Made by a program: the position numbers and the translations under genes
Shown: piece by piece, positions 2,661-58,662 of the stretch
How positions within the stretch are numbered: position 1 is the stretch's first letter
Layout of the letters: every line of letters starts with the position of its first letter
Assembly (NCBI RefSeq): GCF_015160855.1
Contig: NZ_CP063373.1
Coordinates: 3,348,001 to 3,412,000 of the forward strand
Direction of reading: 5' to 3'
Source: Streptomyces ferrugineus
GTDB taxonomy: Bacteria; Actinomycetota; Actinomycetes; Streptomycetales; Streptomycetaceae
Length of the DNA: 64,000 nucleotides
The notes under the pieces: generated by a model
Seen by the model: only the letters and a program-made list of their open reading frames with translations
What the model was told of the DNA's origin: nothing
The model's database searches: none

Positions 2661-2740
2661 GATCAATCACCGGAGGGGCTGATCAATCACCGGAGGGGCT
2701 GATCAATCACCGGAGGGGCTGATCAATCGCCGGACGGGCT
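2661..2740. repeat. Four tandem 20-bp repeats at a convergent gene junction
   Basis: Three identical copies of gatcaatcaccggaggggct (2661-2720) are followed by a fourth with two substitutions (2721-2740, ...atcgccggacgggct). The fourth copy supplies the last codons and stop of the MMPL gene on the minus strand. Its reverse complement (CAGCCCGTCCGGCGATTGA) matches a short repeat that I know to be scattered through Streptomyces intergenic regions, where it often encodes a Ser-Pro-Ser-Gly-Asp tail. The tandem copies look like local slippage from that one element. Confidence 0.9.
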
Positions 2741-4867
2741 GATTTCCTCCCGCGCCAGCCTGTGCGGCCACCACACCTTCGGGCCCACGTCCAGGAACAA
2801 CGACGTCACCAGCACCGACCGCACGATGAACGTGTCCAGCAGCACCCCCAGCGCCACCGCGAAGCCGATCTCGGCGAAGGCGACCATGGGCAGGGTGCCG
2901 AGGGCGGCGAAGGTGCCGGCCAGGACCAGACCGGCTGAAGTGATGACCGCGCCGGTGGCGGCGAGGCCCGTGAGGACGCCCCGACGGGTGCCCTGGTGGG
3001 TGGCCTCCTCGCGGATGCGGGTGGTCAGGAAGATGTTGTAGTCGATGCCCAGGGCCACCAGGAAGACGAAGACGAACAGCGGGAAGTCGGTCGTCTCGCC
3101 CGCGTAGTCGAAGAGGTGGCGGAAGGCCAGGGCGCTGATGCCGAGCGCCGCCGCGAAGGACAGGATCACCGTTCCGACCAGCAGCAGCGGGGCCGTCAGG
3201 GCGCGCAGCAGTACGGCGAGGATCAGCATCACCACCGCCAGCACCAGCGGGATGATCAGGATGTTGTCGTGGGTCGTCGCCCGGTCCATGTCCAGGAGGG
3301 CCGCCGTACCGCCGCCCACCTGGGCGTCGGCGTCCGGGACCGCGTGCACGGCGTCCCGTACGCGCTCGACGGTCTGCTTCGCGGCCTCGCTGTCCGCCGG
3401 GGCGGTCATCGTCGCCTCGAAGAGCACCTTGCCGTCGTAGAGCGGTTTCGTGCCCGGCGGCAGGCCCAGGGACTCGGGGACCACGCCCGGTGTGCCGGCG
3501 ACCGCGCGGCCCACCTGCTGTGCCTGCGCCTGGTCGCTGACGATGACCAGGGGGTCGCCGCTGCCGGCCGGGAAGTAGCGCGCGGAGACCTCCTGGCCGG
3601 TGATCGAGTCCGGCTTGTCGGTGAACGCGTCGGCGTTGCTCAGGCCCTCCGCGCGCAACTGGATCAGGCCCAGGGAGCAGATCGCGAGGACCACGGCGGT
3701 GATCGCCCACGTCATACGGGGGCGGCGGGCTATGCCGCGGCCCATGCGCGCCCAGACGCCGCGCTCCTCCGGGTTGTCCGTACCGACGTGCGGGATCACC
3801 GGCCAGAAGATCCAGCGGCCGACGATGACGAGGAGCGCGGGGAACAGGGTCACCATGGCCAGCAGGCCCACCGCCACGCCGATCGCCGCCACCGGGCCCA
3901 GGCCCCTCGTCGAGTTCATCTCCGCCGCCAGCAGCACCAGCATGCTCAGCACGACGGTCGCGCCGGAGGCCAGCACCGCCGGGCCCGCGCGGTGCAGAGC
4001 CAGGGCCATCGCGTCGTGGCGGTCCTCGTGACGGCGCAGTTCCTCTCGGTAGCGGGCCACCAGCAGCAGGGCGTAGTCCGTCCCCGCGCCGAAGACCAGG
4101 ACCGTGAGGATGCCCGCGCTCTGGCCGTTGACCGTCAGGCCCGCGTGTTCCGCCAGCAGATAGATGAAGGCCTGTGCCGTGAACAGGGCGACGATCACGG
4201 AGATCAGGGGGACCAGGAGCAGGGTCGGGCTGCGGTAGGTGAGCAGGAGCATCACGATGACGACCGACATCGCCGCGAACAGCAGGGTGGAGTCGATGCC
4301 CTCGAACGCCTCGGCGAAGTCCGCCGAGGTGCCGCCCGGGCCCGTGATGTGCACGGCCAGTCCGGCGCCGCCCGCGCCGACGATGTCCCGGATGGAGTCC
4401 GCGGCCGGGCCGATGCGCTCCCAGCCCTGCTCGTCCATCGTGATCGGGACCTGGACCTGGGCCGCCCGCGGGTCGGCCTCCCGGTCGAAGACCGGGCCCC
4501 GGGTCTCGGCGCCGCGGATGCCGTGGTCGGTGAGCTGTTTGAGCCGGGCCAGGTCCTCGGTGATCGCGGCCCGGTCCTGCGCCGTGAGGCCGCCGTCGCG
4601 GGCGTAGACGACGATCGCCGGGATCTGCTGCGGCCGGAAGTTCTCGGAGATCTCGAGGACTTGGGTGGACTCCGCGGACCCCGGCAGCCAGGAGGCCGCG
4701 TCGTTGTCCTGCGCGTCGGTCAGCTTCTGGGCGAGCGGTGCCGTCACCAGCAGCACCACCAGCCACAGGACGAGCACGACCCACTTGGAGCGCCGTCCGC
4801 AGACCAGCTGCGCGACGCCCCGCCGCGCCGCCTCCGGCTGCTGCTTCTTCTCCTGGATCCCGGTCAT
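2723..4867 (-). CDS. MMPL/RND family membrane exporter
   Basis: A 714-residue proton-driven exporter of the MmpL type, probably for a lipid or hydrophobic small molecule; the substrate cannot be read from sequence. A first TM helix near residues 27-45 precedes an extracytoplasmic domain. A block of helices follows that contains the GAGTDYALLLVARYREE motif, with the Asp-Tyr pair of RND-type proton relays. The second half repeats this plan, with GIDYNIFLTTR in the matching place. The chosen ATG has a purine-rich GGGGGTGG upstream; starts further upstream would add a Pro/Arg-rich tail unlike the family. The last residues (SPSGD) come from the tandem repeat at 2721-2740. It is divergent from rpe, with no regulator next to it. 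Confidence 0.9.
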   Translation of the reverse strand: MTGIQEKKQQPEAARRGVAQLVCGRRSKWVVLVLWLVVLLVTAPLAQKLTDAQDNDAASWLPGSAESTQVLEISENFRPQQIPAIVVYARDGGLTAQDRAAITEDLARLKQLTDHGIRGAETRGPVFDREADPRAAQVQVPITMDEQGWERIGPAADSIRDIVGAGGAGLAVHITGPGGTSADFAEAFEGIDSTLLFAAMSVVIVMLLLTYRSPTLLLVPLISVIVALFTAQAFIYLLAEHAGLTVNGQSAGILTVLVFGAGTDYALLLVARYREELRRHEDRHDAMALALHRAGPAVLASGATVVLSMLVLLAAEMNSTRGLGPVAAIGVAVGLLAMVTLFPALLVIVGRWIFWPVIPHVGTDNPEERGVWARMGRGIARRPRMTWAITAVVLAICSLGLIQLRAEGLSNADAFTDKPDSITGQEVSARYFPAGSGDPLVIVSDQAQAQQVGRAVAGTPGVVPESLGLPPGTKPLYDGKVLFEATMTAPADSEAAKQTVERVRDAVHAVPDADAQVGGGTAALLDMDRATTHDNILIIPLVLAVVMLILAVLLRALTAPLLLVGTVILSFAAALGISALAFRHLFDYAGETTDFPLFVFVFLVALGIDYNIFLTTRIREEATHQGTRRGVLTGLAATGAVITSAGLVLAGTFAALGTLPMVAFAEIGFAVALGVLLDTFIVRSVLVTSLFLDVGPKVWWPHRLAREEISPSGD

Positions 4868-4911
4868 GGCCACCCCCGTAGCCCGGTGGCCGCCCAGCAT
4901 GGCACGGGCGA

Positions 4912-4933
4912 CCGCGCCCCGTAAGGGGCGCGG
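4912..4933. repeat. Dispersed Streptomyces-type hairpin between MMPL gene and rpe
   Basis: CGCGCCCC (4913-4920) and GGGGCGCG (4925-4932) form a perfect stem closed by a GTAA loop, extended by one flanking C-G pair. This GNRA-capped GC hairpin is a common small element in Streptomyces intergenic DNA. The rest of the 190-bp divergent gap (4868-5058) must hold the two promoters, but I cannot identify them. Confidence 0.55.
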
Positions 4934-5058
4934 GACGGTGACACCTGCGGCTCCGCCGCGCGGGCGCGGCCGGCCACCAGCGGCCCGCGGCGAACATACG
5001 GCCGTTTCCAGCCGGGACCGATGCTGCTCACCCCCGGAGGGCATGGCAGTCTTGGGGC

Positions 5059-27135: not shown

Positions 27136-28065
27136 TCAGATCCCGGCGGCCCGCACCGCCTCGTACACCTCGGCGGCGACGTCCTTGAGTTCCTGGGCGT
27201 CGCGTGCCTGGCCCTGGAGCTCGAAGAAGAACTCCTCGAGGCCGTCCACGGCATGCGCGGCCAGGTCCTCGACGATCTGCTCGACGCTGCCCTGGAACGC
27301 CGAGCGGTCGGCGCCGTCGTACGCCTTGGGGGTGTACTGGGCGTTGACCCGGACCACGGACCGGATCGGCTCGGTGCGTCCGCGTTCGGCCGCGAGGTCC
27401 TGCAACTGCCGCCACTGCGCGGCGAGTTGCTCGGCGCCCATGGCGATCGGCATCCACCCGTCGAGGCGGTCGACGAGCCGGGTCATCGCCTTCTTGCTGT
27501 TGCTGGGCACCAGGATCGGGATCGGCCGGGCGGGCTTGGGCGCGACCACGGCCGAGGCGACCTTGGAATGGCGGGTCTCGTAGGACACCGGGTCCGGGCC
27601 CCACACGGCCCGGCACACGTCGATCACCTCGTCGAGGGCCTTGCCCCGCTCCTCGAACGGCGCCACGCTCGCCGCCGCGTACTCGTCGAGGGACCACCCG
27701 GTGCCGAAGCCGGCCACGACCCGGCCGCCGCTCGCCGCGTCCAGCGTGCCCAGCGCCTTGGCGAGCTGGAACGGGTTGTGCAGCGGGGCGACCAGAACGC
27801 TGGTGCCGAGCCGGGCGCGCTCGGTCGCCGACACCGCCAGGGTCAGGGTCACCAGGGGGTCGGGGACGCCGCGGTACATCTGAGGCCACGGCATCCCCTC
27901 GATGCCGTACAGGCCCTGGGTCTGGGGTTCCGGGAACAGGGCCCGCTCATAGACCCACAGGCTCTCGTAACCGATCCGCTCGGCCGTGCGCGCCACGTCC
28001 GGCACGTCGCGGCCGATGTCGTACTGCTGTGCTTGGGGAAGGCTGAGCCCCAGCCGAATGGGCAT
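27136..28065 (-). CDS. LLM-class F420-dependent oxidoreductase
   Basis: A 309-residue TIM-barrel of the luciferase-like monooxygenase superfamily, probably using coenzyme F420 as in most actinobacterial members (family knowledge, not shown directly). The N-terminus (MPIRLGLSLPQAQQYD) and the segments RIGYESLWVYER, LGTSVLVAPLHNPFQLAKALGTLD and GRVVAGFGTGWSLDEY are typical. The substrate is unknown. AAAGGAGCG lies just upstream of the ATG at 28065. It converges on davB with 15 bp between the stops. The upstream region has a TTGACG hexamer and two phased direct repeats. Confidence 0.88.
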   Translation of the reverse strand: MPIRLGLSLPQAQQYDIGRDVPDVARTAERIGYESLWVYERALFPEPQTQGLYGIEGMPWPQMYRGVPDPLVTLTLAVSATERARLGTSVLVAPLHNPFQLAKALGTLDAASGGRVVAGFGTGWSLDEYAAASVAPFEERGKALDEVIDVCRAVWGPDPVSYETRHSKVASAVVAPKPARPIPILVPSNSKKAMTRLVDRLDGWMPIAMGAEQLAAQWRQLQDLAAERGRTEPIRSVVRVNAQYTPKAYDGADRSAFQGSVEQIVEDLAAHAVDGLEEFFFELQGQARDAQELKDVAAEVYEAVRAAGI

Positions 28066-28972: not shown

Positions 28973-30178
28973 GTGCCAGGCTTACGTGCCCAGCGACGGG
29001 CCGCGCGCAGGGCCGAGCGCAGGAGGGCGGCCCGGCGCGGCGCCATGGTGGTGGCGGCCTCGGTCGTCGTCGCCGTCGGCGCGGTGACCGGGACGCTGTC
29101 GGCGCTCGACGACACAAGGCCCACCGACGAGGCGGGGCCGCCCCGGGTGACCCGCTCGCCGAGCCTGGACTCCCTGCCGCTCCCGCCGTCCGCCTCCCCG
29201 TCGGCCCCACGGTCGCCCTCGCCGACGTCCGTCTCGCCGACCCCCACGCCGAAGCGGAGCACCGCCACGCCCTCGCCGGCCGGCACCGAGCGGAAGCAGC
29301 GGACGGCCGTGGCGTCCCCCCGCCTCTACCGCCACCCCGACTCCCAGGTGCTGGAGTGGGTCCGCGACAACCCCGCCGATCCGCGCCACGCCGTCATCCA
29401 GTCCCGTATCGCCGCCCAGCCGGCCGCGGTGTGGTTCGCCGACTTCACGCCGGACACCATCACCGCCCGGGTCCGCGCGGTCACCTCCGGAGGGTCGGCG
29501 CTGGGGCGGGTGCCGGTCGTCGTGCCGTACGCGATACCGGACCGCGACTGCGGCGGCTACTCCGAGGGCGGGGCGCCGAGCCTTGACGCCTACGACGCCT
29601 GGATCGACCGGTTCGCCGCCGGGCTCGGCTCCGGCGACGTCATCGTCGTCCTGGAGCCCGACTCCATCGCCCAGTCCGAATGCCTCTCCGCCGGTGCCCG
29701 CGCCGACCGCTTCGCCTCCCTCGCCCGCGCGGGCCGCGTCCTCAAGGAGGCGAACCCCAAGGCGCGCGTGTACTACGACGCCGGGCACTCCGGCTGGAAC
29801 GCGCCCGGCAAGCAGGCGGAGCTGCTGCGGCAGGCCGGCGCCGCCTCGACCGCGTCGTCCGACGGCGTCTTCAGCAACGTCTCCAATTTCCACACCACAG
29901 CCGACGAGATCGCCCACGACCGTCAGGTCCTCGACGCCCTCGGCGGCCCCGCCTCGCTCGGCGCCGTCATCGACACCAGCCGCAACGGCGCCGGGGCCCC
30001 GGCCGACGGCGAGTGGTGCGACCCCGCCGGCCGCAAGCTGGGCCGGGCACCGACGACGGCGACCGGCGAGGCGCGGATCGACGCCTACCTGTGGGTGAAG
30101 CTGCCGGGGGAGTCGGACGGCTGCAAGGGGAAGCCGGGGACCTTCACGGCGTCGTACGCCTACGACCTGGCGCGGTGA
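28973..30178 (+). CDS. Glycoside hydrolase family 6 protein (cellulase-like), membrane-anchored
   Basis: A 401-residue GH6 enzyme. An Arg-rich N-terminus and a hydrophobic segment (MVVAASVVVAVGAVTGTLSAL, about residues 25-45) act as signal or anchor; a Pro/Ser/Thr linker follows to about 108. The catalytic domain has the GH6 signatures VPYAIPDRDCGGYSEGG (proton-network Asp and Cys), VIVVLEPDSIAQ (catalytic acid Asp) and VIDTSRNGAG, ending with WVKLPGESDGC. GH6 enzymes invert beta-1,4-glucan bonds as endoglucanases or cellobiohydrolases. There is no cellulose-binding module. No CebR-type operator is visible upstream. GTG start at 28973 following GGGGGAGCAGGACC. Confidence 0.92.
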   Translation: MPGLRAQRRAARRAERRRAARRGAMVVAASVVVAVGAVTGTLSALDDTRPTDEAGPPRVTRSPSLDSLPLPPSASPSAPRSPSPTSVSPTPTPKRSTATPSPAGTERKQRTAVASPRLYRHPDSQVLEWVRDNPADPRHAVIQSRIAAQPAAVWFADFTPDTITARVRAVTSGGSALGRVPVVVPYAIPDRDCGGYSEGGAPSLDAYDAWIDRFAAGLGSGDVIVVLEPDSIAQSECLSAGARADRFASLARAGRVLKEANPKARVYYDAGHSGWNAPGKQAELLRQAGAASTASSDGVFSNVSNFHTTADEIAHDRQVLDALGGPASLGAVIDTSRNGAGAPADGEWCDPAGRKLGRAPTTATGEARIDAYLWVKLPGESDGCKGKPGTFTASYAYDLAR

Positions 30179-43443: not shown

Positions 43444-43587
43444 GCATCAATGCCATTTCCATGGAAGGCAGTTGGGTGCGCCGGGGGCGGCCGTGGAAGT
43501 CCAGCGAGGGAGCCTGTGAGGCAACCCACACCCTTCGCCTGTATGGACATCGATCAGGCGTGGCACACTGGCCCTGTACCAGAAGCA

Positions 43588-43714
43588 GCGCACTCCGGGG
43601 TCGGTGAAAGTCCGAACCGGCGGTTACAGTCCGCGACCCGGTCGCCTCCAGCGGCCGGTTGACCAGGTGAAATTCCTGGACCGACGGTTAAAGTCCGGAT
43701 GGGAGGCAGTGCGC
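43588..43714 (+). ncRNA. FMN riboswitch (RFN element)
   Basis: The aptamer is unmistakable: P1 GCGCAC (43588-43593) with GTGCGC (43709-43714), and in between the conserved GTCGGTGAAAGTCCGAACC, GGTTACAGTCC, GGTTGACCAGGTGAAATTCC, GACCGACGGTTAAAGTCCGG and ATGGGAGGCAGTGCGC blocks. FMN binding turns down expression of riboflavin biosynthesis or transport. It sits 149 bp before ribE and should control the whole ribE-ribM-ribBA-ribH operon. Confidence 0.97.
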
Positions 43715-43742
43715 GGCGGGCGGGCATTCATGCGCGCCGCCG
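43714..43742 (+). promoter_or_regulatory. Expression-platform hairpin of the FMN riboswitch
   Basis: CGGCGG (43714-43719) pairs with CCGCCG (43737-43742) and GCA/TGC closes an inner TTCA loop. It begins on the last base of P1, so the two helices compete or stack. It has no U-run, so it may be a GC-type terminator or part of a longer switch that reaches the ribE ribosome-binding site. Confidence 0.5.
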
Positions 43743-43862: not shown

Positions 43863-44480
43863 GTGTTCACCGGAATCGTCGAAGAGCTGGGCGAGGTCAC
43901 CGCCGTCGAGATCCTCGACGACGCCTGTCGCTTCCGAGTGCGCGGCCCCGTCGTCACCGACGGCGCGAAGCACGGCGACTCCATCGCGGTGAACGGCGTC
44001 TGCCTCACGGTCGTCGACCACGAGGGCGACGAGTTCACCGCCGATGTCATGGCCGAGACCCTCAACCGCTCCAGCCTGGGCGTCCTCACCGTCGGCTCCC
44101 GCGTCAACCTGGAGCGCCCCACCGCCGTGGGCGCGCGCCTCGGCGGGCACATCGTGCAGGGCCACGTCGACGGCACCGGCGAGGTGCTGGAGCGCAAGCC
44201 CTCCGACAACTGGGAGATCGTGAAGGTCTCGCTCCCCGCGGACCTGTCCCGGTACGTCGTCGAGAAGGGCTCCATCACCGTCGACGGCATCAGCCTGACC
44301 GTGGTCGACGCCGGCCCCGACTACTTCACCGTCAGCCTCATCCCCACCACCCTCGATCTGACCACCCTGGGCCACAAGCAGCCCGGCGACCCGGTCAACC
44401 TGGAGGTCGACGTCATCGCCAAGTACGTCGAGCGGATGCTGGGCGACCGGATCTCCTCCGAAGGGGCGGCGGGCCGGTGA
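43863..44480 (+). CDS. ribE: Riboflavin synthase (alpha subunit type)
   Basis: Catalyses dismutation of two 6,7-dimethyl-8-ribityllumazines to riboflavin, the last step of the pathway. The 205-residue protein has the invariant N-terminus MFTGIVEE and two homologous beta-barrel halves, each with a [16 protein letters not shown] motif (about residues 43-50 and 141-148) and a [13 protein letters not shown] segment. All lumazine-binding features are intact. GTG at 43863 has AGGAGG about 13 nt upstream. First gene of the FMN-riboswitch operon. The stop overlaps the ribM start (GTGA). Confidence 0.96.
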
Positions 44481-48891: not shown

Positions 48892-50217
48892 ATGAGCATC
48901 CCCCTGCTGCTCCTGGCAGCCGCGTTCCTCCTGATTCTCGCCAACGGCTTCTTCGTGGCCGCCGAGTTCGGCCTGGTCACGGTCGAGGCGACGGACGCCG
49001 AGAAGGCCGCCGCGGAAGGCGACCGACGGGCCCGCCGGGTCGTCGAGTCGCTCAAGGAACTGTCCTTCCAGCTCTCCGGCACCCAGCTCGGCATCACCAT
49101 CACCTCCCTCGTGGTCGGCATGCTCGCCGAACCGGCGCTGGCCGACCTGCTGGGCGGCCCGTTCACGGCGATCGGCGTCCCCGAGGGCGCGGTGTCCGGT
49201 GTCGCCGTGGTCGTCGGCATGCTGCTGGCCTCGGCCGTGCAGATGGTGATCGGCGAACTCGTGCCCAAGAACTGGGCGGTGTCCCGGCCGATGCAGGTCG
49301 CGCGCTTCGTCGCCGGCCCGCAGCACGTCTTCGCACGGCTGTTCCGCCCGGTGATCGCCGCGCTGAACTCCGTCGCCAACCGCCTCGTCCGCGCGCTGGG
49401 CATCGAGCCCGCCGAGGAGCTGGCCTCCGCTCGCACCCCCGGCGAACTCGTCTCCCTGGCCCGGCACTCCGCCCAGGCCGGCGCCCTCGAACAGGACACG
49501 GCGGATCTCTTCGTACGGACCCTGTCGCTCGGCGAGCTCACCGCGCAGCACGTCATGACCCCGCGCGTGAAGGTCAGCGCGCTGCAGTCGTCGGCCACCG
49601 CCGAGGACGTGGTGAACCTGACCCGCGCGACCGGTCTGTCCCGCTTCCCGGTCTACCGGGAGAAGATCGACGAGATCGTCGGCATGGTCCATCTGAAGGA
49701 CGCCCTGGCGATCCGTTCGGGTGAACGTCTGCGCACCCCGGTCGGCCGTATCGCCCGCCCCGCGCTGCTGGTCCCCGAGACCCTGCCGGTCCAGCCGCTC
49801 CTCGCCCAGCTGCGCAGTGAGCAGCCCATCGCCGTCGTCGTCGACGAGTACGGCGGCACGGCCGGCGTGGTCACGCTGGAGGACATCGTCGAGGAGATCG
49901 TCGGCGAGGTCCGCGACGAGCACGACGGCCAGGACCTGCCGGAACTCGCCGCCGCCCCGCCGGAGGACGGCCGCCCGGCGTGGGACGCCGACGGCAGCTG
50001 CCGAGTCGACATCCTCCAGCGCATAGGACTCGACGTGCCCGAGGGGCCGTACGAGACCGTCGCCGGACTGGTCGCCGACCTGCTCGGGCGCATCCCGGCC
50101 GTCGGCGACAAGGCGGAGCTGCCGGGCTGGCGGCTGTCGGTGCGCCGGGTCGGCCACTACCGCGCCGAGCGCGTCCGCCTGGTGCGGACCGGGGCCGTGG
50201 TGGAGGTCGCCCGATGA
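48892..50217 (+). CDS. CNNM/CorC-type membrane protein (hemolysin family)
   Basis: A 441-residue member of the CNNM/CorC family of magnesium (or cobalt) transport-related proteins. A DUF21 transmembrane domain (about residues 1-190, opening PLLLLAAAFLLILANGFFVAAEFGLVTVEA) is followed by two CBS domains (about 205-325, with VMTPRVKVSAL and VVDEYGGTAGVVTLEDI) and a C-terminal CorC_HlyC domain (about 345-435, DGSCRVDILQRIGLDVPEG). It overlaps the second CNNM gene by 4 bp (ATGA), so the two are expressed together. The leader holds a hairpin over the ribosome-binding region. Confidence 0.9.
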   Translation: MSIPLLLLAAAFLLILANGFFVAAEFGLVTVEATDAEKAAAEGDRRARRVVESLKELSFQLSGTQLGITITSLVVGMLAEPALADLLGGPFTAIGVPEGAVSGVAVVVGMLLASAVQMVIGELVPKNWAVSRPMQVARFVAGPQHVFARLFRPVIAALNSVANRLVRALGIEPAEELASARTPGELVSLARHSAQAGALEQDTADLFVRTLSLGELTAQHVMTPRVKVSALQSSATAEDVVNLTRATGLSRFPVYREKIDEIVGMVHLKDALAIRSGERLRTPVGRIARPALLVPETLPVQPLLAQLRSEQPIAVVVDEYGGTAGVVTLEDIVEEIVGEVRDEHDGQDLPELAAAPPEDGRPAWDADGSCRVDILQRIGLDVPEGPYETVAGLVADLLGRIPAVGDKAELPGWRLSVRRVGHYRAERVRLVRTGAVVEVAR

Positions 50218-51302
50218 GCGTGCTCCAACTCGTCTTCGCCGCACTGCTCGTGCTCGCCAACGGCTTCTTCGTCGGCGCCGAGTTCGCCCTCGTCTCGGTC
50301 CGCCGCAGCCAGATCGAACCGCTCGGCACCGCACGGGCCCGCAAGGTTCTGTACGGCCTGGAGCGGCTGCCGGAGATGATGGCGGCGGCCCAGTTCGGCA
50401 TCACCGTCTGCTCGCTGACGCTCGGCGCGGTCGCGGAGCCCACGGTGGCGCACCTGCTGGAGCCGCTGTTCGAGTGGATCCACCTTCCGGACGGCATGAT
50501 CCACCCGCTCACCTATGTCATCGCGCTCGCCGCGGTGGTCTTCTTCCACCTGGTCATCGGCGAGATGCTGCCGAAGAACCTGGCGATGGCGGCGCCGGAG
50601 AAGGTCGCGCTGTGGCTCAGCCCCGGCCTGGTCTACTTCGCCCGCTTCTGCCGGCCGATCACCGTGGCCCTCGGCGCCGTCGCCCAGGCCATCCTGCGGC
50701 TGTTCCGTGTCGAGCCGAAGGACGAGGTCGAGGCGGTGTTCACCAGCGAGCAGCTCAACCGGCTCGTCGAGGACTCCGGCCAGGCCGGTCTGCTCGACCC
50801 GGAGGAGCAGGAGCGCCTGGAGGACGCCCTGGAGCTGGGCTCCCGCCCGGTGACGGATGTGCTGCTCAAGCGCGAGTCCCTGGTCACCGTCAGCCCCTCG
50901 GTCACCCCCGGCCAGATCGTCGCGCTCACCGCCCGCACCGGGTACTCCCGCTTCCCGGTGGCGGCGGAGACCGGCGCCTTCATGGGCTATCTGCATGTGA
51001 AGGACGTACTGGACCTGGAGGAGTCGGAGCGCGCGGTGCCCCAGCAGGTCTGGCACCCGATGACGACCCTGCGCTCCGAACTCCCCCTGGACGACGCCCT
51101 GACGGTGATGCGCCGCGCCGCGACCCATCTGGCCCAGGTGGCCGACGCGTCCGGCAAGGTCCTGGGTCTCGTCGCCCTGGAGGACGTACTGGAACTCCTG
51201 GTGGGCGAGGTACGGGATCCGGCGCACCGGGAGTTGCCGGAGGTGCGGGTCACGGCGCCGCGACTGAGCAGCGGGGAGCCGGAGGGGGCGTTGGCGGGGT
51301 AG
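50214..51302 (+). CDS. CNNM/CorC-type membrane protein, short paralogue
   Basis: A 362-residue paralogue of the previous gene: DUF21 domain (LVLANGFFVGAEFALVSVRR near residues 12-31, GEMLPKNLAMAAPEK around 121-135) and a CBS pair (about 210-330, YSRFPVAAETGAFMGYLHVKDVL, ALEDVLELLVGEVRDP). It lacks the C-terminal CorC_HlyC domain of its partner and ends soon after the second CBS domain. This long/short pairing suggests a heteromeric transporter. ATG at 50214 overlaps the stop of the first gene. Confidence 0.9.
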   Translation: MSVLQLVFAALLVLANGFFVGAEFALVSVRRSQIEPLGTARARKVLYGLERLPEMMAAAQFGITVCSLTLGAVAEPTVAHLLEPLFEWIHLPDGMIHPLTYVIALAAVVFFHLVIGEMLPKNLAMAAPEKVALWLSPGLVYFARFCRPITVALGAVAQAILRLFRVEPKDEVEAVFTSEQLNRLVEDSGQAGLLDPEEQERLEDALELGSRPVTDVLLKRESLVTVSPSVTPGQIVALTARTGYSRFPVAAETGAFMGYLHVKDVLDLEESERAVPQQVWHPMTTLRSELPLDDALTVMRRAATHLAQVADASGKVLGLVALEDVLELLVGEVRDPAHRELPEVRVTAPRLSSGEPEGALAG

Positions 51303-51363: not shown

Positions 51364-53229
51364 CTACGTGGCCGACGGATCCTGCGGACCCCTGCCCGAC
51401 AGCACTTCCCCATACGCCTGCATCAGATCCGGCAACCGAAGTGTCGACAAGTCGTCCCTCGTCAACGCCCCCGGATAAGTCGTCAACCGCAGATCCCGGT
51501 ACGCACAGCTCTTCTCGTACAGCGTCCGCAGGAACCGCCCGTTGCCCAGCTCGTCGATCCACCCCTGATCGACCACGTGCCCGGCGATCGACCGCAGCTC
51601 CTCCAGCGCCTCCTCGTCCCACACGTCCCCGTTCTCCGCGGCCAGCACCTCGCCGATCGAGGTGAGCTCAAGAGGCCGGTACGACGGGAAGTCCACCCGG
51701 GTCGTGAAGCGCGAGGACAGACCGGGGTTCGCGGCCAGCAGCCGGTCCATGCCCTCGGGATAGCCGGCGAGGATCACCACCAGGTGGTCCCGGTTGTCCT
51801 CGGCCCGCTTCAGCAGCACCTGAAGGGCCTCGTCGCCGTACGCGTCGCCCTTGCCGTAGCCGGTGTTGGACAGGGAGTACGCCTCGTCCACGAACAGCAC
51901 GCCACCGAGCGCGGAGTCGATGAGTTCGTTGGCCTTCACGGCCGTCTGGCCCAGATACTCGCCGACCAGATCGGCCCGCTGGGCCTCCACGAGATGGTCG
52001 CCGCCGAGCAGCCCGAGGGCGTAGAAGACCCGGCCCAGGATGCGCGCGACCGTGGTCTTGCCGGTGCCCGAGGGGCCGGAGAAGACGAAGTGCCGTTTCG
52101 GCGGCTGCACCGGCAGCCCCTGCCCGGCCCGCAGCCGGGCCATGTTCAACTGGGCGGACAGCGCCTTGACCTGGCGCTTGACGGGCTCGAGCCCCACCAT
52201 GCGCTCGAGCTCGGCGAGCGCCTCCTCGAGTAACTGCGGATCGGTCGGCCCGGCGGGCAGCGGCTGCGACGGTACGCCCGTCTTCTGGCGCACCGCCGGA
52301 TCCACCGCCGACGACAGCGGCCCGTTCGGCGGCAGGTCCGGGTCGGACAGCTTCAGGTCCCGGCCCTCGGTGCCGAACAGCGGGTCCAGCCCGTCGGTCC
52401 CGTCGCCCATGTCCCCGCCGAACCCGGTGAGCGTGATCGCCGCGAGGTCGGTCGGGTCGTCGTACCCGTCGCCCTCGGCGATGGCCGCGAGCCGGGCCGA
52501 GGTGTCCATGAAGGCGGGGTCGACGCGATGCACGGCGCGGTACAGGGGGAGCGCGGCCGCCGACCGGCCCGTGCCCTCGTGCGCCCGCGCCAGCCAGTAC
52601 CGCAGCTCCTTGCGCTGCGGCTGCTCACTGCGGCACCGCATCAGCGCGGCCGACAGCAGGGGCTCGGCCTGCCCGTACATCTCCAGCCGCACCCGCGCCA
52701 TGCCGCCGAACAGGCCGGCCTCGATGCCGAGCATCGGATCGTCGAGCAGCGGGTCGGTGTGGCGTACGAGCTGCTCCCAGTCCTTCACCAGATACGCGCG
52801 GCAGGCGTGCAGGAAGCGGACCTGGTGGTCGGTGTCCACGGGCGGGAGCCCGGCGAGCGCCCGGTCCAGCTCCGGGACGTGCCGGCCGTCCAGCCAGTGC
52901 GAGGCGTGCGCCAGCAGCAGATCGCGGGGGCTCTCCAGCACCGGCTGCACCCACCAGCCCAGCCAGTACCAGGAGTTGAGCGTGCGCCGGTGCCGGGCGC
53001 GCTGCTCCCCGAAGCGCTCCCGGTGCCGGAACATCCGCAGCAGCGCCGTCGTCGTGTCGACGCGCAGCGCGTGCAGGCCGAGCCAGCCGTCGGCCATCCC
53101 GGGATCGATCCGCACCGCGGTGCGGAACTCCTCCTCCGCCTGCGGATACGCCCCCATCGTGTAGGCATCCACACCTCGCAGCCAGGCGAGGTCGGCCGGG
53201 GCCTCGGGGCCCTGCGTGCCGAAGTCCAT
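51364..53229 (-). CDS. CbxX/CfqX-type AAA+ ATPase with helical-repeat N-terminus; TTA codon
   Basis: A 621-residue AAA+ protein. Residues 1-280 form TPR-like helical repeats (for example GAYPQAEEEFRTAVRIDPGM, residues 17-36). A Gly/Asp/Pro-rich linker leads to the AAA+ module with Walker A GPSGTGKT (385-392), Walker B GVLFVDEAYSL (about 437-447) and a conserved sensor/arginine-finger region NPGLSSRFTTRVDFP. The same plan is found in EccA of type VII secretion and in rubisco activase CbxX, but no ESX genes lie nearby. Codon 333 is TTA (52233-52231 on this strand), so translation should depend on bldA tRNA-Leu. I recall the S. coelicolor homologue as a known TTA gene. Confidence 0.88.
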   Translation of the reverse strand: MDFGTQGPEAPADLAWLRGVDAYTMGAYPQAEEEFRTAVRIDPGMADGWLGLHALRVDTTTALLRMFRHRERFGEQRARHRRTLNSWYWLGWWVQPVLESPRDLLLAHASHWLDGRHVPELDRALAGLPPVDTDHQVRFLHACRAYLVKDWEQLVRHTDPLLDDPMLGIEAGLFGGMARVRLEMYGQAEPLLSAALMRCRSEQPQRKELRYWLARAHEGTGRSAAALPLYRAVHRVDPAFMDTSARLAAIAEGDGYDDPTDLAAITLTGFGGDMGDGTDGLDPLFGTEGRDLKLSDPDLPPNGPLSSAVDPAVRQKTGVPSQPLPAGPTDPQLLEEALAELERMVGLEPVKRQVKALSAQLNMARLRAGQGLPVQPPKRHFVFSGPSGTGKTTVARILGRVFYALGLLGGDHLVEAQRADLVGEYLGQTAVKANELIDSALGGVLFVDEAYSLSNTGYGKGDAYGDEALQVLLKRAEDNRDHLVVILAGYPEGMDRLLAANPGLSSRFTTRVDFPSYRPLELTSIGEVLAAENGDVWDEEALEELRSIAGHVVDQGWIDELGNGRFLRTLYEKSCAYRDLRLTTYPGALTRDDLSTLRLPDLMQAYGEVLSGRGPQDPSAT

Positions 53230-53504
53230 CACGTCCCCCACAAACCGTGCCCCCGTCGGTTGACCGGCCGCCCGCCCGCCGGCCACCTTGATCGAACGGC
53301 CGTACCGTGGACCGGAGTTGCAACGGTGCGCAGAGCAGCCGTCCGTAGGTCGCACCGAGGGCATCGTACCTGCGAGGGAGGGGCCCGCCCCAGGGTGCCG
53401 CACCGGCCGTTTGGCGAGGTGGGAGCAGATCCGGGGGAGCGCGCTCGGTGACCGAGGGTGAGCAAATCGCGCCTCTCGGCGCCCGGAAAAAGGGGGTGAG
53501 GGCA

Positions 53505-53577
53505 GAACGAAGCCCCCGATCACGGGGGAACAACCGGGGGCTTCGCGTCTTCGGGCGGTCTCGAATGACCGCACATT
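53505..53577 (-). ncRNA. Candidate small RNA or attenuated leader
   Basis: On the minus strand a promoter-like TTGACC-17 bp-TTACGT (53610-53582) would start a transcript near 53577. It would contain a hairpin GCGGTC/GACCGC (53571-53566/53559-53554) and a perfect 11-bp terminator stem CGAAGCCCCCG/CGGGGGCTTCG (53545-53535/53518-53508) with a C-rich 16-nt loop (TTCCCCC). The RNA would be about 70 nt. It lies in the 430-bp gap 53230-53659 upstream of the TTA-containing AAA+ gene, so it could also be an attenuator of that gene. Confidence 0.45.
53508..53545 (-). terminator. Strong stem-loop between uridine-kinase-like and AAA+ genes
   Basis: Perfect 11-bp stem CGAAGCCCCCG/CGGGGGCTTCG with a 16-nt loop, 115 bp downstream of the uridine-kinase-like stop. 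It should end that transcript or the small RNA proposed here. Confidence 0.7.
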
Positions 53578-53659
53578 GAGAACGTAAGTCCTGTACGGCC
53601 CCCGGGTCAAGCCGAGTTGAGGCACTCCGGGAACTTGGCCGACGGGGTTCTTCACAAGT

Positions 53660-54328
53660 TCAGCACATTGCCGATGGGTCGTCACCCTGTGTGATGAGCT
53701 GGTCCGGTCCAACGGTCCCGGCAGGCCCAGGAACCACCTCATATCCCATTCCGCACTGTCGAACCAGAAGGTCGGCGAAGGGCCTGGAAGGGTCGTCGGC
53801 GAAGTGTCTGCGCTCCGCCCTGACCCAGCGGTCCCAGAACTCCCGCTGCTCCTCCCCGTCCCGTGAACGCCCCCGGGCCCAGGAGTCCTCGTGCGGCAGC
53901 TCCATCCAGGCCAGCTCGGCGAGATACGGACGCAGCGCGCGGCGGCCGGCGCCGACGCCCTCGATGACGATCACCGGGGCGGGCGGCAGGGGCAGCGGCG
54001 GTCCGAATCGGCGGGCCCGCCAGTCGTAGGGGGTGTAGTGGGCGGTCTCGCCGCGCGCGAGCGGTGCGATCACCTGGGTCAGCAGGCGCTCGGTCCACTC
54101 GAACAGCTCGTCGTGGCTGGCGATGTCGTCGAGGTGCAGCACCGGGGCGTCGTCCAGTGCCCGGGCCAACTGCCCGGCGAACGTGGACTTTCCGGAGCCG
54201 GCGTGCCCGTCGACGCCGATCAGGCGGACGGGGCCGCAGGACGGGGGGAGACGGCGGAGCCGGGTGGCGAGGACGTGAATCGTTTTTCCCGAAAGCGAAG
54301 CGGAGGTGGGCATATTTCGTTGGAACAT
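53660..54328 (-). CDS. Uridine-kinase-like P-loop protein
   Basis: A 222-residue P-loop kinase related to uridine kinase/phosphoribulokinase. The Walker A is GVDGHAGSGKST (about residues 38-49); LHLDDIASHDELFEWTERL (about 70-88) follows the lid-side base-binding region, VIVIEGVGAGRRAL carries the Walker B, and DRWVRAERRHFADDPS is the typical C-terminal part. In Streptomyces such proteins are annotated uridine kinase, but true substrate is not shown. The start may be the ATG at 54328 or at 54313. It is divergent from the TTA-containing gene at 54523; the gap of 194 bp is comparatively AT-rich. Confidence 0.85.
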   Translation of the reverse strand: MFQRNMPTSASLSGKTIHVLATRLRRLPPSCGPVRLIGVDGHAGSGKSTFAGQLARALDDAPVLHLDDIASHDELFEWTERLLTQVIAPLARGETAHYTPYDWRARRFGPPLPLPPAPVIVIEGVGAGRRALRPYLAELAWMELPHEDSWARGRSRDGEEQREFWDRWVRAERRHFADDPSRPFADLLVRQCGMGYEVVPGPAGTVGPDQLITQGDDPSAMC

Positions 54329-54522
54329 TCTAGTAGCGGGTGAAAGCGGATGCGGCGACGAGAAGAGAAAAGGTGTCGCTTTGAACTAGCCGGCCGCTGT
54401 CCGCAATGTTGCCGAAAAACTCCGGCCACCACAGTGAAATCGACGTTCCGGTTGAGGCCCACGCTGAGTAGGGTGCCTGGTGCGCAACTGTGGGATGACG
54501 CAACGGGGATGGGCTGGGACGC

Positions 54523-55476
54523 ATGGCCGCGGGGTTATTCGAAGGGCAGTATGTGTGGCATCCGGCGGCCGACGACCGCGTGCTGGCGAGCGTATGCGTC
54601 GATGTCCGGGCCGGGCGCTATCTGAGCGCGCGCGACGCCCTGGCCGAAACCCGCGGCGACTTCCGGCTGCGGGCCCACCGCTCCCTGGTGCTCGCCTCGG
54701 AGGCCGCCGACTCCGACCTCGTCGAGCGCTGGCTGGCGGAGGAGCCCGGCCCCGAGGCCGCGCTGATGTGGGCGCGGGTCGCCGTGCTGCGGGCGCTGCG
54801 CGCGGCCGACGCGCGTGACCCGCGCACCGAGGCGCTGGAGCGGATAGCGCTGGCCGCCTGCGACCGGGCGGCGACGGAGGGCGGCGCCGATCCCACGCCC
54901 TGGGTGGCCAAGCTGGCCATGGCCCGGCTGCACCGGCTGCGCGAACAGGCGCCGCGCGGACTGCTGACCGCACCGCCCGGACCGTGGCGCCTGTTTGCGC
55001 ACGTCCTCTCGCTCGACCCCTGGCACCGCGAGGCCCACCATCGCTTCCTGGCCACTTTCTTCCCCCGCTACGGCGGCTCCGTGACCGCCGCCTGGGACGT
55101 CGCCGCCTTCCTCGGCCAGCGCGCGCCCGCCGACTCACCGCTGCGCCTGCTTCCGCTGGTCGCCCTCGTCGAGTGCTACGACCCCACCCAGCTGCTCGCC
55201 GACCGGGTCTGGGAGCAGCCGCAGTGGCGCGCGACCGCGCTGGCGATCCACCACAACTGGCTGCCCACGGTGGCCGGCTATCCCTTCACTCCGGTCCTGG
55301 ACCTGGCCTACCTCGCGCATGCCCTGGTCATGGCCGGGTGCGAGACGCAGGCGCGCGCCGTCTTCACGGCGATGGGCCCCTACGCCTCGCGCATGCCCTG
55401 GTCCGTCTTCGGCGACCCGGCCGAGCAGCTGTCCCGGGCGCGCCGCGCCTGCGGACTGCCCGTACCGACCGCCTGA
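54523..55476 (+). CDS. Hypothetical helical protein with an early TTA codon
   Basis: A 317-residue protein rich in Ala, Leu and Arg, predicted almost all alpha-helical with repeat-like units (for example DALAETRGDFRLRAHRSLVLAS; HVLSLDPWHREAHHRFLATF), reminiscent of TPR solenoids. I recognise no enzyme motif. Codon 5 is TTA (54535-54537), the position at which TTA codons most strongly gate expression through bldA tRNA, so production is probably restricted to late growth or sporulation. It is divergent from the uridine-kinase-like gene and lies one gene away from the other TTA gene of the window. The permease gene follows after 37 bp and may be cotranscribed. Confidence 0.85.
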   Translation: MAAGLFEGQYVWHPAADDRVLASVCVDVRAGRYLSARDALAETRGDFRLRAHRSLVLASEAADSDLVERWLAEEPGPEAALMWARVAVLRALRAADARDPRTEALERIALAACDRAATEGGADPTPWVAKLAMARLHRLREQAPRGLLTAPPGPWRLFAHVLSLDPWHREAHHRFLATFFPRYGGSVTAAWDVAAFLGQRAPADSPLRLLPLVALVECYDPTQLLADRVWEQPQWRATALAIHHNWLPTVAGYPFTPVLDLAYLAHALVMAGCETQARAVFTAMGPYASRMPWSVFGDPAEQLSRARRACGLPVPTA

Positions 55477-55513: not shown

Positions 55514-57055
55514 GTGCCACAACGGATATCCGCACCGCGCGCCCGAGCGCGCGGGGGAGCGGATCCGATCGCGCTCGACGATGACGCCACGCTGCATGCG
55601 ATGGGTTATCCGAGAAAACTCACACGGCGCTTTCAGGCGTTCGACAACTTCGCCATCTCGTTCACCATCATCAACATCATCTCGGGTATCTTCTCGGGCT
55701 TCGGGTTCGGTCTGAACGCGGGCGGCCCGAGCATTCTCGTCTTCGGCTGGATCGGCGTCTCCGTCATGGTGCTCTTCGTGGGAGCAGCGATGGCGGAAGT
55801 CGCCTCGGCCTATCCGACGAGCGGTGCACTGTATTTCTCCGCCGGGAAACTCGCCAAACGGCACAAGGGCGCCTGGTCCTGGTACACCGGCTGGCTGAAC
55901 TTCGTGGGCCAGGTCGGCGGCACCGCCGCCACCGGGTACGCCGCCGCCACCTTCATCCAGGCCTTCATCGCCCTCCAGTGGCCCTCGTACGAGGCGACCG
56001 GCCACCGCACGGTGCTGATCACGGCCCTGATCATCGTGGTGCAGGGGCTCGCCAACACCTACACCGTGCAACTGGTCGCCGTACTGAACCGGATCTCCGT
56101 GTGGTGGCTGCTCAGCGGACTCGTGGTGATCGTGACCGCCCTGATCGTGATTCCCGATCACCATCAGCCGGCTTCCTACGTCACGCATTTCGCCAACAAC
56201 ACCGGTTTCACCAGCGCCCTTTACGGCGGGATGCTCGGACTGCTGGTGACGAGCTGGACCTTCACCGGCTTCGACGGCAGTTTCCACATGTCGGAGGAAA
56301 CGGTCCGCGCGACGGTGAACGCGCCGAAGGGGATCACCCGGGCGATCGGATACTCGGCAATCGCGGGACTGCTGCTGATGCTCGCATTGGTCTACAGCAT
56401 TCGCGATGAGGACCGGGTGGCGAGTGCCGACGCACCGCCCGTGCAGATCCTGATCGACGGCCTCGGCGTGGGCACCGCCAAGGTGCTGCTGCTGATCGTG
56501 ATCGGGGCGATGCTCTTCTGCGGCCTGGCCAATCTCACCAGCAACACCCGGCAGATCTTCGCCTTCTCGCGGGACGGCGCGATGCCCGGCTCCCGCTGGT
56601 GGCACTCGGTCTCGCCGCGCACCCGCACGCCCGTCAAGGCGGTGTGGCTGGCCGTCTGCTGCTCACTGGCGCTCGTGATGCCCGGCTGGTGGTCGCACAC
56701 GGCGTTCACGGCCATCGTCAGTGTCAACGTGGTCGGGCTGTTCCTCGCCTACGCCGTGCCGATCCTGCTGAGGCTGCGGCTCGGCGACGAGTTCCAGCCG
56801 GGCCCCTGGCACCTGGGCCGCTGGGGCAGGCCGGTCGGGATCGTCGCGGTGACCTGGATCGTGCTCAGCAGCGTGCTGTTCATGCTGCCGCAGTCCGCGC
56901 CGGTGACCGTCGACTCGTTCAACTACGCGCCGGTCGCCCTGGCCGTCGTCCTGGCAGTGGCCACGGCGTGGTGGTTCACCACCGCCCGGCGCCGCTTCCA
57001 CGGCCCGGTCAGCTACGGCCGTCCCGACGAGGTCGCGGCGATGGACCTGGTCTGA
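55514..57055 (+). CDS. APC-family amino acid/GABA permease
   Basis: A 513-residue APC transporter of the amino acid/choline (GabP/UGA4/BAT1-like) branch, with 12 TM segments. TM1 reads NFAISFTIINIISGIFSGF; GWIGVSVMVLFVGAAMAEVASAYPTSGALY is the diagnostic TM2-TM3 region, and NTRQIFAFSRDGAMPG the loop after TM8. Such carriers bring in GABA, choline or aromatic amino acids. GTG at 55514 follows GAGAAAGG (55497-55504) by about 10 nt. It starts 37 bp behind the TTA-containing gene. An unusually long hairpin terminator begins 15 bp after its stop. Confidence 0.9.
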   Translation: MPQRISAPRARARGGADPIALDDDATLHAMGYPRKLTRRFQAFDNFAISFTIINIISGIFSGFGFGLNAGGPSILVFGWIGVSVMVLFVGAAMAEVASAYPTSGALYFSAGKLAKRHKGAWSWYTGWLNFVGQVGGTAATGYAAATFIQAFIALQWPSYEATGHRTVLITALIIVVQGLANTYTVQLVAVLNRISVWWLLSGLVVIVTALIVIPDHHQPASYVTHFANNTGFTSALYGGMLGLLVTSWTFTGFDGSFHMSEETVRATVNAPKGITRAIGYSAIAGLLLMLALVYSIRDEDRVASADAPPVQILIDGLGVGTAKVLLLIVIGAMLFCGLANLTSNTRQIFAFSRDGAMPGSRWWHSVSPRTRTPVKAVWLAVCCSLALVMPGWWSHTAFTAIVSVNVVGLFLAYAVPILLRLRLGDEFQPGPWHLGRWGRPVGIVAVTWIVLSSVLFMLPQSAPVTVDSFNYAPVALAVVLAVATAWWFTTARRRFHGPVSYGRPDEVAAMDLV

Positions 57056-57105: not shown

Positions 57106-57303
57106 GCCCGGCTCGCTCATCTCGCCCCTCCTGTAAGGGGGTTGGGGCCGCCGGGCACCCGTTCCGACGCCAGTGGTCGACACCAATATTCGTAGCCACG
57201 CCAGGGGGCCGAAGTGCTGGTAGCGGCCGCCCTGTGGGGTCATAGTTGGCGGACAGCCGTGCACAGGAGCCGCCCGACTCGGACACCTGGGGGTCTTCCG
57301 CCC

Positions 57304-58662
57304 ATGAGCAGCGCCGAACAGCCGTCCCGCAGAACCGTCCTCGCCGCCGCGGTCGTCGCGGCCGTGGCGGGCGGCGCGAGCCCGGCGGCCGCCGCCGACG
57401 AGCCGGCCGATGCCGTCACCGACACCCCGGCCCGCACCGTCGACAACCGCGCCTGGACCACGTACGCCGACTGGCGCACCGGCACCGCGAACGGCACCCG
57501 TACCGTCGCCGGCAAGCGCCCCGGCATCGTGATCGCCACGCCCGCCGGCACCACCGACTACACGGACCCGCACACCGGCCGGACCGCCCGCTGGGAGTAC
57601 GCGACCTGGACGTCCCCCGTCCACCGCCTCTCCGTCCCCGCGACCGAGGCGATCGCCTCCTGGAACGCCCACACCCCCGAGGGCACCTGGCTCCAGATCG
57701 AGCTGCGGGGCACGTACTCCGACGGCACCGCCACCCCCTGGTACGTGATGGGCCGCTGGGCCGCGGGCGACCAGGACATCCGCCGGACCTCGGTGGACGA
57801 CCAGAGCGACGGCAGGAGCAGCGTCTGGACCGACACGCTCGCCATCGACGACCCGGCGACCGGGCTGCGCCTCACCGCATACCGGCTGCGGCTGACCCTG
57901 TACCGCGAGCCCGGTACGAAGCTCACCCCCAGGGTCTGGCGGGTCGGCGCCATGGGCTCCGACGTCCCCGACCGCTTCACCGTCCCGGCCTCCACCCCCG
58001 GCCTCGCCCGGGAGCTGATCGTCCCGCGTTACTCGCAGGAGATCCACATCGGCCAGTACCCGGAGTACGACAACGGCGGCGAGGCCTGGTGCAGCCCCAC
58101 CTCCTCGCAGATGATCGTCGAGTACTGGGGCGCCCGGCTCACCCCCGAACAGCTGGCCTGGGTCGACCCGTCGTTCGCGGACCCGCAGGTCTGCCACGCG
58201 GCCCGGTTCACCTTCGACCACCAGTACGAGGGCTGCGGAAACTGGCCGTTCAACGCCGCCTACGCGGCCACCTTCGAGGGCCTGCAGGGCGTCGTCACCC
58301 GGCTCGGCTCGCTCACCGACGTGGAGAGGCTGATCGCGGCGGGCATCCCGGCCATCACGTCCCAGTCCTTCCTGGAGTCGGAGCTCACCGGGGCGGGGTA
58401 CGGCACCGCCGGGCATCTGATGACCGTCATCGGCTTCACCGCCGACGGCGACGTGATCGCCAACGACCCGAACTCACCGAGCAACGAGGCGGTGCGGCGC
58501 GTCTACCAGCGGCGCGAGTGGGAGAACATCTGGTTGCGGACCAAGCGGTACAACGCCCAGGGCAAGGTGGTCTCCGGGACCGGAGGCGTCTGCTACCTCT
58601 ACTTCCCGGCGCGTCCGACCCCGGGCCAGCGGGCCGCGCTCGCCGCCGTGGGGGTGCGCTGA
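57304..58662 (+). CDS. Secreted C39-like peptidase (Tat signal)
   Basis: A 452-residue exported protein. The N-terminus has a twin-arginine-type signal (SRRTVLAAAVVAAVAGG, about residues 8-24), cleaved probably after AAA near 32. The first half of the mature protein (to about 240) is a beta-rich domain; the second has a C39-like peptidase domain with the catalytic-type Cys in NGGEAWCSPTSSQMIVEYW (about residue 264) and the His in GYGTAGHLMTVIGF, followed by Asn/Asp in VIANDPNSPSN. C39 enzymes cleave or bind peptides; here it is free and extracellular, not joined to an ABC exporter. ATG at 57304, the residues before it do not suit a signal peptide. Confidence 0.85.
   Translation: MSSAEQPSRRTVLAAAVVAAVAGGASPAAAADEPADAVTDTPARTVDNRAWTTYADWRTGTANGTRTVAGKRPGIVIATPAGTTDYTDPHTGRTARWEYATWTSPVHRLSVPATEAIASWNAHTPEGTWLQIELRGTYSDGTATPWYVMGRWAAGDQDIRRTSVDDQSDGRSSVWTDTLAIDDPATGLRLTAYRLRLTLYREPGTKLTPRVWRVGAMGSDVPDRFTVPASTPGLARELIVPRYSQEIHIGQYPEYDNGGEAWCSPTSSQMIVEYWGARLTPEQLAWVDPSFADPQVCHAARFTFDHQYEGCGNWPFNAAYAATFEGLQGVVTRLGSLTDVERLIAAGIPAITSQSFLESELTGAGYGTAGHLMTVIGFTADGDVIANDPNSPSNEAVRRVYQRREWENIWLRTKRYNAQGKVVSGTGGVCYLYFPARPTPGQRAALAAVGVR

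Follow-up and report, generated by a model that had tools for sequence, protein, structure and literature searches.

A conserved early TTA codon in a helical-repeat gene paired with an amino-acid permease gene suggests a bldA-gated operon in Streptomyces

In pairs of the GlnK-AmtB type, a cytosolic regulator is encoded in an operon with its transporter. Here we describe a gene pair of Streptomyces ferrugineus that resembles this arrangement by analogy only, in that a putative soluble partner is encoded beside a transporter; the soluble protein is predicted to be an alpha-solenoid and not, like GlnK, a PII protein. The pair lies in a 64,000-nucleotide stretch (the window; contig NZ_CP063373.1, positions 3,348,001 to 3,412,000) of a 9.96 Mb genome. 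It consists of the gene for a helical-repeat protein, called HEL below, which has the leucine codon TTA at position 5, and a gene 37 bp downstream on the same strand that encodes an APC-superfamily amino-acid permease. An AAA+ gene that also carries an in-frame TTA lies nearby, with a single kinase-like gene in between, and an earlier note on the window had taken the two TTA genes for a likely bldA-gated module, perhaps of motor and client or adaptor. Coordinates are collected in Table 1.

Sections of PMC2000904 report that UUA-containing polycistronic messages are reduced without bldA and describe SCO6638-SCO6637 which, like HEL and its permease, is a two-gene unit with TTA in the upstream gene and downstream polarity expected. 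The HEL-permease pair differs in joining a TPR-like protein to an amino-acid permease, and in that its bldA dependence is something we infer. Parts of PMC4255298 and PMC10327506 likewise score TTA codons across species. The word "permease" is absent from the main text of PMC4255298. Part of PMC10327506 gives 11 orthogroups with TTA positionally conserved at 50% or more across Streptomyces, and mentions no hypothetical protein whose codon 5 is TTA. Term searches of the open-licence literature returned no account of a pair of the HEL-permease type, nor of a link between bldA and amino-acid transport. From sequence comparison we propose, at a probability of about 0.62, that HEL and the permease gene form a bldA-gated operon in which HEL would be a dedicated cytosolic partner of the permease, with the AAA+ gene a mere neighbor.

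Two partly overlapping collections of loci were used, a genus sample of 199 Streptomyces genomes, in which HEL orthologues were taken at 67% identity or more, and a set of named Streptomyces species, from which the best 80 of 172 HEL loci were kept. The permease assignment is secure at the level of the Pfam family AA_permease_2 (E 3.9e-63; 214.3 bits against a cut-off of 27), and the protein falls below the cut-off of the NCBIfam subfamily TIGR00907 (2A0304; 403.8 versus 598.3 bits). A permease gene adjoins HEL in 79 of the 80 named loci and beside 14 of the 15 genus-sample orthologues that do not adjoin the AAA+ gene; the single miss in each set is a contig end. The pairing extends to HEL paralogues of about 27-44% identity. 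Among 40 such loci picked from the listed matches, including three from the genome of the window itself, 37 have a same-strand permease within 1 kb as scored with a hidden Markov model (HMM), and a 38th (locus L248, at C1:3082538 of the window's genome) is a second HEL-permease pair with another type of permease that Pfam recognizes and the HMM misses. As the HMM can miss some permease types, these pairing counts are lower bounds. An order-wide HEL search gave a paired permease in 30/30 of the best loci (orthologues and the window included). The class-wide search gave 11 of 28 by the HMM, and for the strong matches (E below 1e-50) 11 of 13, or 12 if L308, which is the same place as L248, is added. 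The permeases paired with HEL fall into three groups, one of which has the permease upstream of HEL.

The TTA at codon 5 is strikingly well kept. HEL orthologues were found in 45 of the 199 genus-sample genomes, the window's included. Of these, 32 have TTA at codon 5, which is all but one of the 33 that have leucine at this position; a TTA occurs somewhere in the gene in 39 of the 45, at seven positions that all fall within the first 92 codons. In the 80 named loci, codon 5 is TTA in 76, TTG in two, and CTA and CTG in one each. The named locus with CTG, L185, has TTA at codon 82, and one named locus with TTA at codon 5 carries an extra TTA at codon 207. The neighbors in the same named loci (n = 79) give the local comparison: the kinase-like gene has TTA in 0/79 and the permease gene in 2/79. 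TTA at codon 5 persists at 76% identity (L035, L036, and L229). Thus TTA is retained in HEL far above background, and bldA control of the helical gene, as the earlier note expected, is likely; judged from these sequences, conservation of the codon is not due to chance. Given that few TTA codons are positionally conserved in Streptomyces, a near-fixed TTA in HEL points to late expression that matters.

These counts depend on the HEL start being correctly placed. The N-terminal residues of the 45 orthologues align as protein without gaps and with many synonymous differences, whereas the DNA upstream of the ATG at 54523 is divergent by eye, indicating that codon 5 is translated. A later start at GTG 54553, which would leave the TTA outside the gene, is ruled out by this N-terminal protein conservation; some HEL database records are 307-308 aa long, which matches the length from that GTG. 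The structure model (predicted local distance difference test score, pLDDT, 92.4; predicted template modeling score, pTM, 0.90) predicts a TPR-like alpha-solenoid, and fold searches with this model and with an earlier one (pLDDT 72) gave generic TPR/solenoid matches only. Residues 1-7 have low model confidence and are probably disordered. No Pfam TPR model scores above its cut-off for the window's HEL; a remote paralogue in the same genome (L127, the gene also found in L248) passes TPR_19 (27.2 versus 25 bits). The proposal of TPR-like helices in both the AAA+ and the helical protein is supported. The name "DUF4034" given to some HEL records in UniRef has no Pfam support for the window's HEL and was not met in the open-licence literature searched. 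Upstream of HEL, the block TGAGTARGGTG, a possible -10 promoter region, recurs by eye ahead of many orthologues, several of them not beside an AAA+ gene. In a scan for BldD boxes, 24 of 108 upstream regions score 8/10, while a score of at least 8 is reached by 16 of 540 shuffles, the regions being related in sequence; the BldD-like site is this conserved block, and the window itself scores 7.

The wider HEL family carries TTA more often than its surroundings. TTA is present in 13 of the 40 paralogues, as against 10 of the 163 genes that flank them (p = 3e-5), and makes up 16 of 1328 leucine codons in the paralogues versus 10 of 6092 in the flanking genes (p = 9e-7), both being tests that ignore phylogenetic relatedness. 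Fourteen of the 16 lie within codons 1-100 of the domain; the L248 gene has its TTA at codon 113 of the longest frame. As the positions differ, TTA seems to have been gained repeatedly, yet it is far from universal. The permease gene of the paralogue pairs has TTA in 5/40 loci (L134, L234, L238, L242, and L243).

The disregard of relatedness in these tests is one of several points that weigh against the operon proposal. Six of the 45 HEL orthologues and 27 of the 40 paralogues have no TTA at all, so that bldA gating would be common but not inherent to the HEL-permease pair. Orthologue L020 has AAG where the ATG is expected. L145 is a good HEL match without a permease, and none of 15 distant relatives (E weaker than 1e-30) has a permease by the HMM, although these weak class-wide matches probably belong to a wider TPR-like superfamily; L250, a weak match, also lacks a permease detected by the HMM. 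That the same HMM found no match in 400 kb of this genome speaks for the pairing, but is a weak control because the HMM misses at least one permease type, that of L248. Finally, HEL and permease distances correlate, in favor of the pair (Mantel r 0.82, 0/2000 permutations, 50 pairs, being 53 loci minus L145, L248, and L250, which have no HMM permease), yet such a correlation cannot tell physical contact from vertical co-inheritance.

In the proposed mechanism, HEL and the permease gene would be co-transcribed as a two-gene operon, and the HEL solenoid would contact the permease as its dedicated cytosolic adaptor or regulator. With UUA at codon 5, HEL would be translated only while charged bldA tRNA is abundant (this genome encodes a tRNA-Leu of the bldA type, anticodon TAA), and polarity or destabilization of the messenger RNA could gate the permease along with HEL. 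The pair would then appear late, in aerial growth or stationary phase, the timing and the amino-acid substrate being part of the conjecture. The pair may also be mobile. Of 13 mapped loci in which HEL is missing, 12 have a homologue of the C39-like peptidase (by eye, from its N-terminus) immediately after the kinase-like gene, which was not called in the 13th (L100). HEL-permease thus looks like a movable two-gene insert which, in one clade, would sit between the kinase-like and peptidase genes of an otherwise conserved locus. A broader version, that HEL represents a whole class of Streptomycetales proteins, TPR-like solenoid subunits each serving one APC-superfamily permease and many repeatedly gated by bldA through early TTA codons, is more tentative, and we hold it at somewhat less than even odds. 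If the proposal is true, HEL-permease pairs would switch amino-acid uptake or recycling in the course of development: a bldA switch would be tied to amino-acid transport, a class of hypothetical proteins would gain a testable role as permease partners, and the "motor and client" idea would be redirected.

The AAA+ gene has a different distribution from HEL. Its start at 53229 is favored by homology; the longest open reading frame (ORF) starts at 53742, in which numbering the TTA is codon 504 rather than 333. At E<=1e-60 the gene was matched in 195 of the 199 genomes, mostly in single copy; the four genomes without a detected gene all have EccB and are all fragmented or incomplete assemblies. 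The codon counts cover 86 loci drawn from these 195 genomes (the window, 29 further loci in which the AAA+ gene adjoins HEL, and 56 picked from the listed matches). TTA is at codon 333 in 37 of these and in 45 of 79 named loci, so bldA control of the AAA+ gene is supported, albeit more weakly than for HEL. The protein has an AAA core and lid, as have EccA1, CbbX, and SpoVK, and an EccA1-like N domain (Pfam T7SS_EccA1_N, 60.8 versus 27 bits), and its best solved relative is EccA1 (E 8.7e-66). It differs from all three in lying below the NCBIfam equivalog cut-offs (T7SS_EccA, 320.4 versus 466.65; CbbX, 196 versus 459; SpoVK, 231 versus 423 bits) and in occurring in genomes without an EccB match.

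The earlier note read the shared rare codon as a sign that the AAA+ motor and HEL, perhaps as client or adaptor, work together under bldA. Both genes do carry TTA above background, both products are TPR-like, and the two genes occur together within a large clade (79/80 named loci); in the genus sample the AAA+ gene adjoins 29 of the 44 other HEL orthologues. The expected conservation of gene order holds within a clade; across the genus sample, the AAA+ gene is in 195/199 genomes versus 45/199 for HEL. The two genes are divergently transcribed with the kinase-like gene between them, and the constant neighbor of HEL is the permease gene. The expectation that both TTA codons are conserved stands for HEL and less so for codon 333: in the named loci (n = 79), 31 have the HEL TTA without that of the AAA+ gene, and a single locus shows the opposite (McNemar p = 1.5e-8). 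When the 86 AAA+ loci are taken together, those beside HEL have TTA nominally more often (any TTA, 22/30 versus 28/56 without HEL, p = 0.04; codon 333, 18/30 versus 19/56, p = 0.02). This association vanishes once the comparison is confined to AAA+ genes with 91% or more identity to that of the window (codon 333 is TTA in 17/28 with HEL beside and 19/32 without, p = 1), which suggests a clade effect, whereas a tree-based independent-pairs test had only two supported contrasts and hence no power. Conversely, HEL keeps its TTA in L035, L036, and L229, where the fetched stretch holds no AAA+ gene. Thus the shared TTA is no evidence of joint function, and a module built upon it was dropped on these grounds together with the genome distribution and the permease pairing. 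Nor is the proximity of two TTA genes remarkable in itself: of the 347 ORFs called across 464 kb of the genome (a 400 kb sample plus the window, from a crude caller that places some starts too early), 21 contain TTA, which gives a calculated chance of about 22% that a second TTA gene lies within two genes either side of a TTA gene. Three genomes (G050, G153, and G030; loci L144, L137, and L251) do have a HEL paralogue-permease pair no more than 10 kb from the AAA+ gene. These pairs are not orthologous to that of the window, and the AAA+ neighborhood may possibly be an insertion hotspot for such pairs. On balance we consider the motor-client explanation very improbable, the least probable of those weighed here.

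Only slightly less improbable is that the HEL TTA is a neutral relic of shared ancestry and short branches. The loci that have it are mostly of one clade, and the probable disorder of residues 1-7 would leave little structural constraint. However, the same genomes lose the AAA+ codon far more often, the HEL codon has been retained at 76% identity, and new TTA codons arise at other early positions in both orthologues and paralogues. A third possibility, on which we see the odds as even and which is compatible with the operon proposal, is that the AAA+ gene is under bldA control but works on its own, the HEL-permease pair having been inserted alongside by chance, so that the TTA codons of both would be functional and unrelated. 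TTA is found at nine alignment positions of the AAA+ gene and in 50 of the 86 loci; against this, codon 333 requires 18 changes on the tree of the 86 genes and is replaced by varied synonyms (CTG, CTC, TTG, and CTA), a pattern that weak or absent selection would produce. Annotation and gene order lead us to assume that the AAA+ gene is probably the orthologue of SCO1434, no named sequence tying the two. In Table 2 of PMC4255298, SCO1434 ("Secreted AAA ATPase") is listed as carrying TTA in 8/13 genomes, which would favor a bldA target acting alone. That the AAA+ protein is the EccA of a distantly encoded ESX (type VII) secretion system is unlikely, if less so than the motor-client and relic explanations. 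Its N domain and nearest solved relative argue for it, as does the presence of EccB, the sole ESX gene scored, in 179 of the 199 genomes; its score under the NCBIfam EccA cut-off argues against it. EccB went unmatched in 20 genomes, and every one of them has an AAA+ match (two weaker ones in G092), indicating that the AAA+ gene is independent of EccB. The earlier note spoke of an EccA-like design without an ESX cluster; this genome does have an ESX gene, EccB, 4.4 Mb away. In the operon proposal, the AAA+ gene would remain a neighbor with its own, less strictly kept TTA and would not be the motor of HEL.

Table 1 Features of the window (positions are those of the 64,000-nucleotide stretch)
Feature	Position	Strand	Basis
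tRNA-Pro(TGG), 90 nt, inside ORF called on other strand; probably a false call	27294..27383	+	ARAGORN
GH6 glycoside hydrolase, TTA at codon 4	28973..30178	+	TTA behind apparent ribosome-binding site
FMN riboswitch, 98.7 bits, ahead of ORF at 43863	43586..43716	+	Rfam
Two tandem CNNM/CorC-like membrane protein genes adjoining AAA+ gene	48892..51302		NCBIfam
AAA+ protein with EccA1-like N domain, 621 aa	51364..53229	-	Pfam, homology
TTA codon 333 of AAA+ gene	52231..52233	-	In-frame codon check
Kinase-like P-loop protein between AAA+ and HEL, no TTA	53660..54313	-	Weak domain matches
Block TGAGTARGGTG upstream of HEL, possible -10 promoter region	54465..54475	+	By eye
HEL, predicted TPR-like alpha-solenoid protein, 317 aa, putative permease partner, first gene of proposed operon	54523..55476	+	Start check, model, pairing
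TTA codon 5 of HEL	54535..54537	+	In-frame codon check
APC-superfamily amino-acid permease, 513 aa, conserved partner of HEL by adjacency	55514..57055	+	Pfam AA_permease_2, adjacency
Secreted C39-like peptidase	57214..58662	+	Pfam

The tRNA-Pro(TGG) call was not reported by Rfam at the gathering threshold and is probably false. The two TTA codons of the AAA+ and HEL genes were confirmed in frame where the earlier note had placed them, but its statement that no other called gene has one did not hold. The ORF at 2723-5044 has a TTA at codon 41, probably upstream of the true start, and the GH6 gene has one at codon 4, which is common to two close orthologues (L310 and L311) and is TTG in a third (L312).

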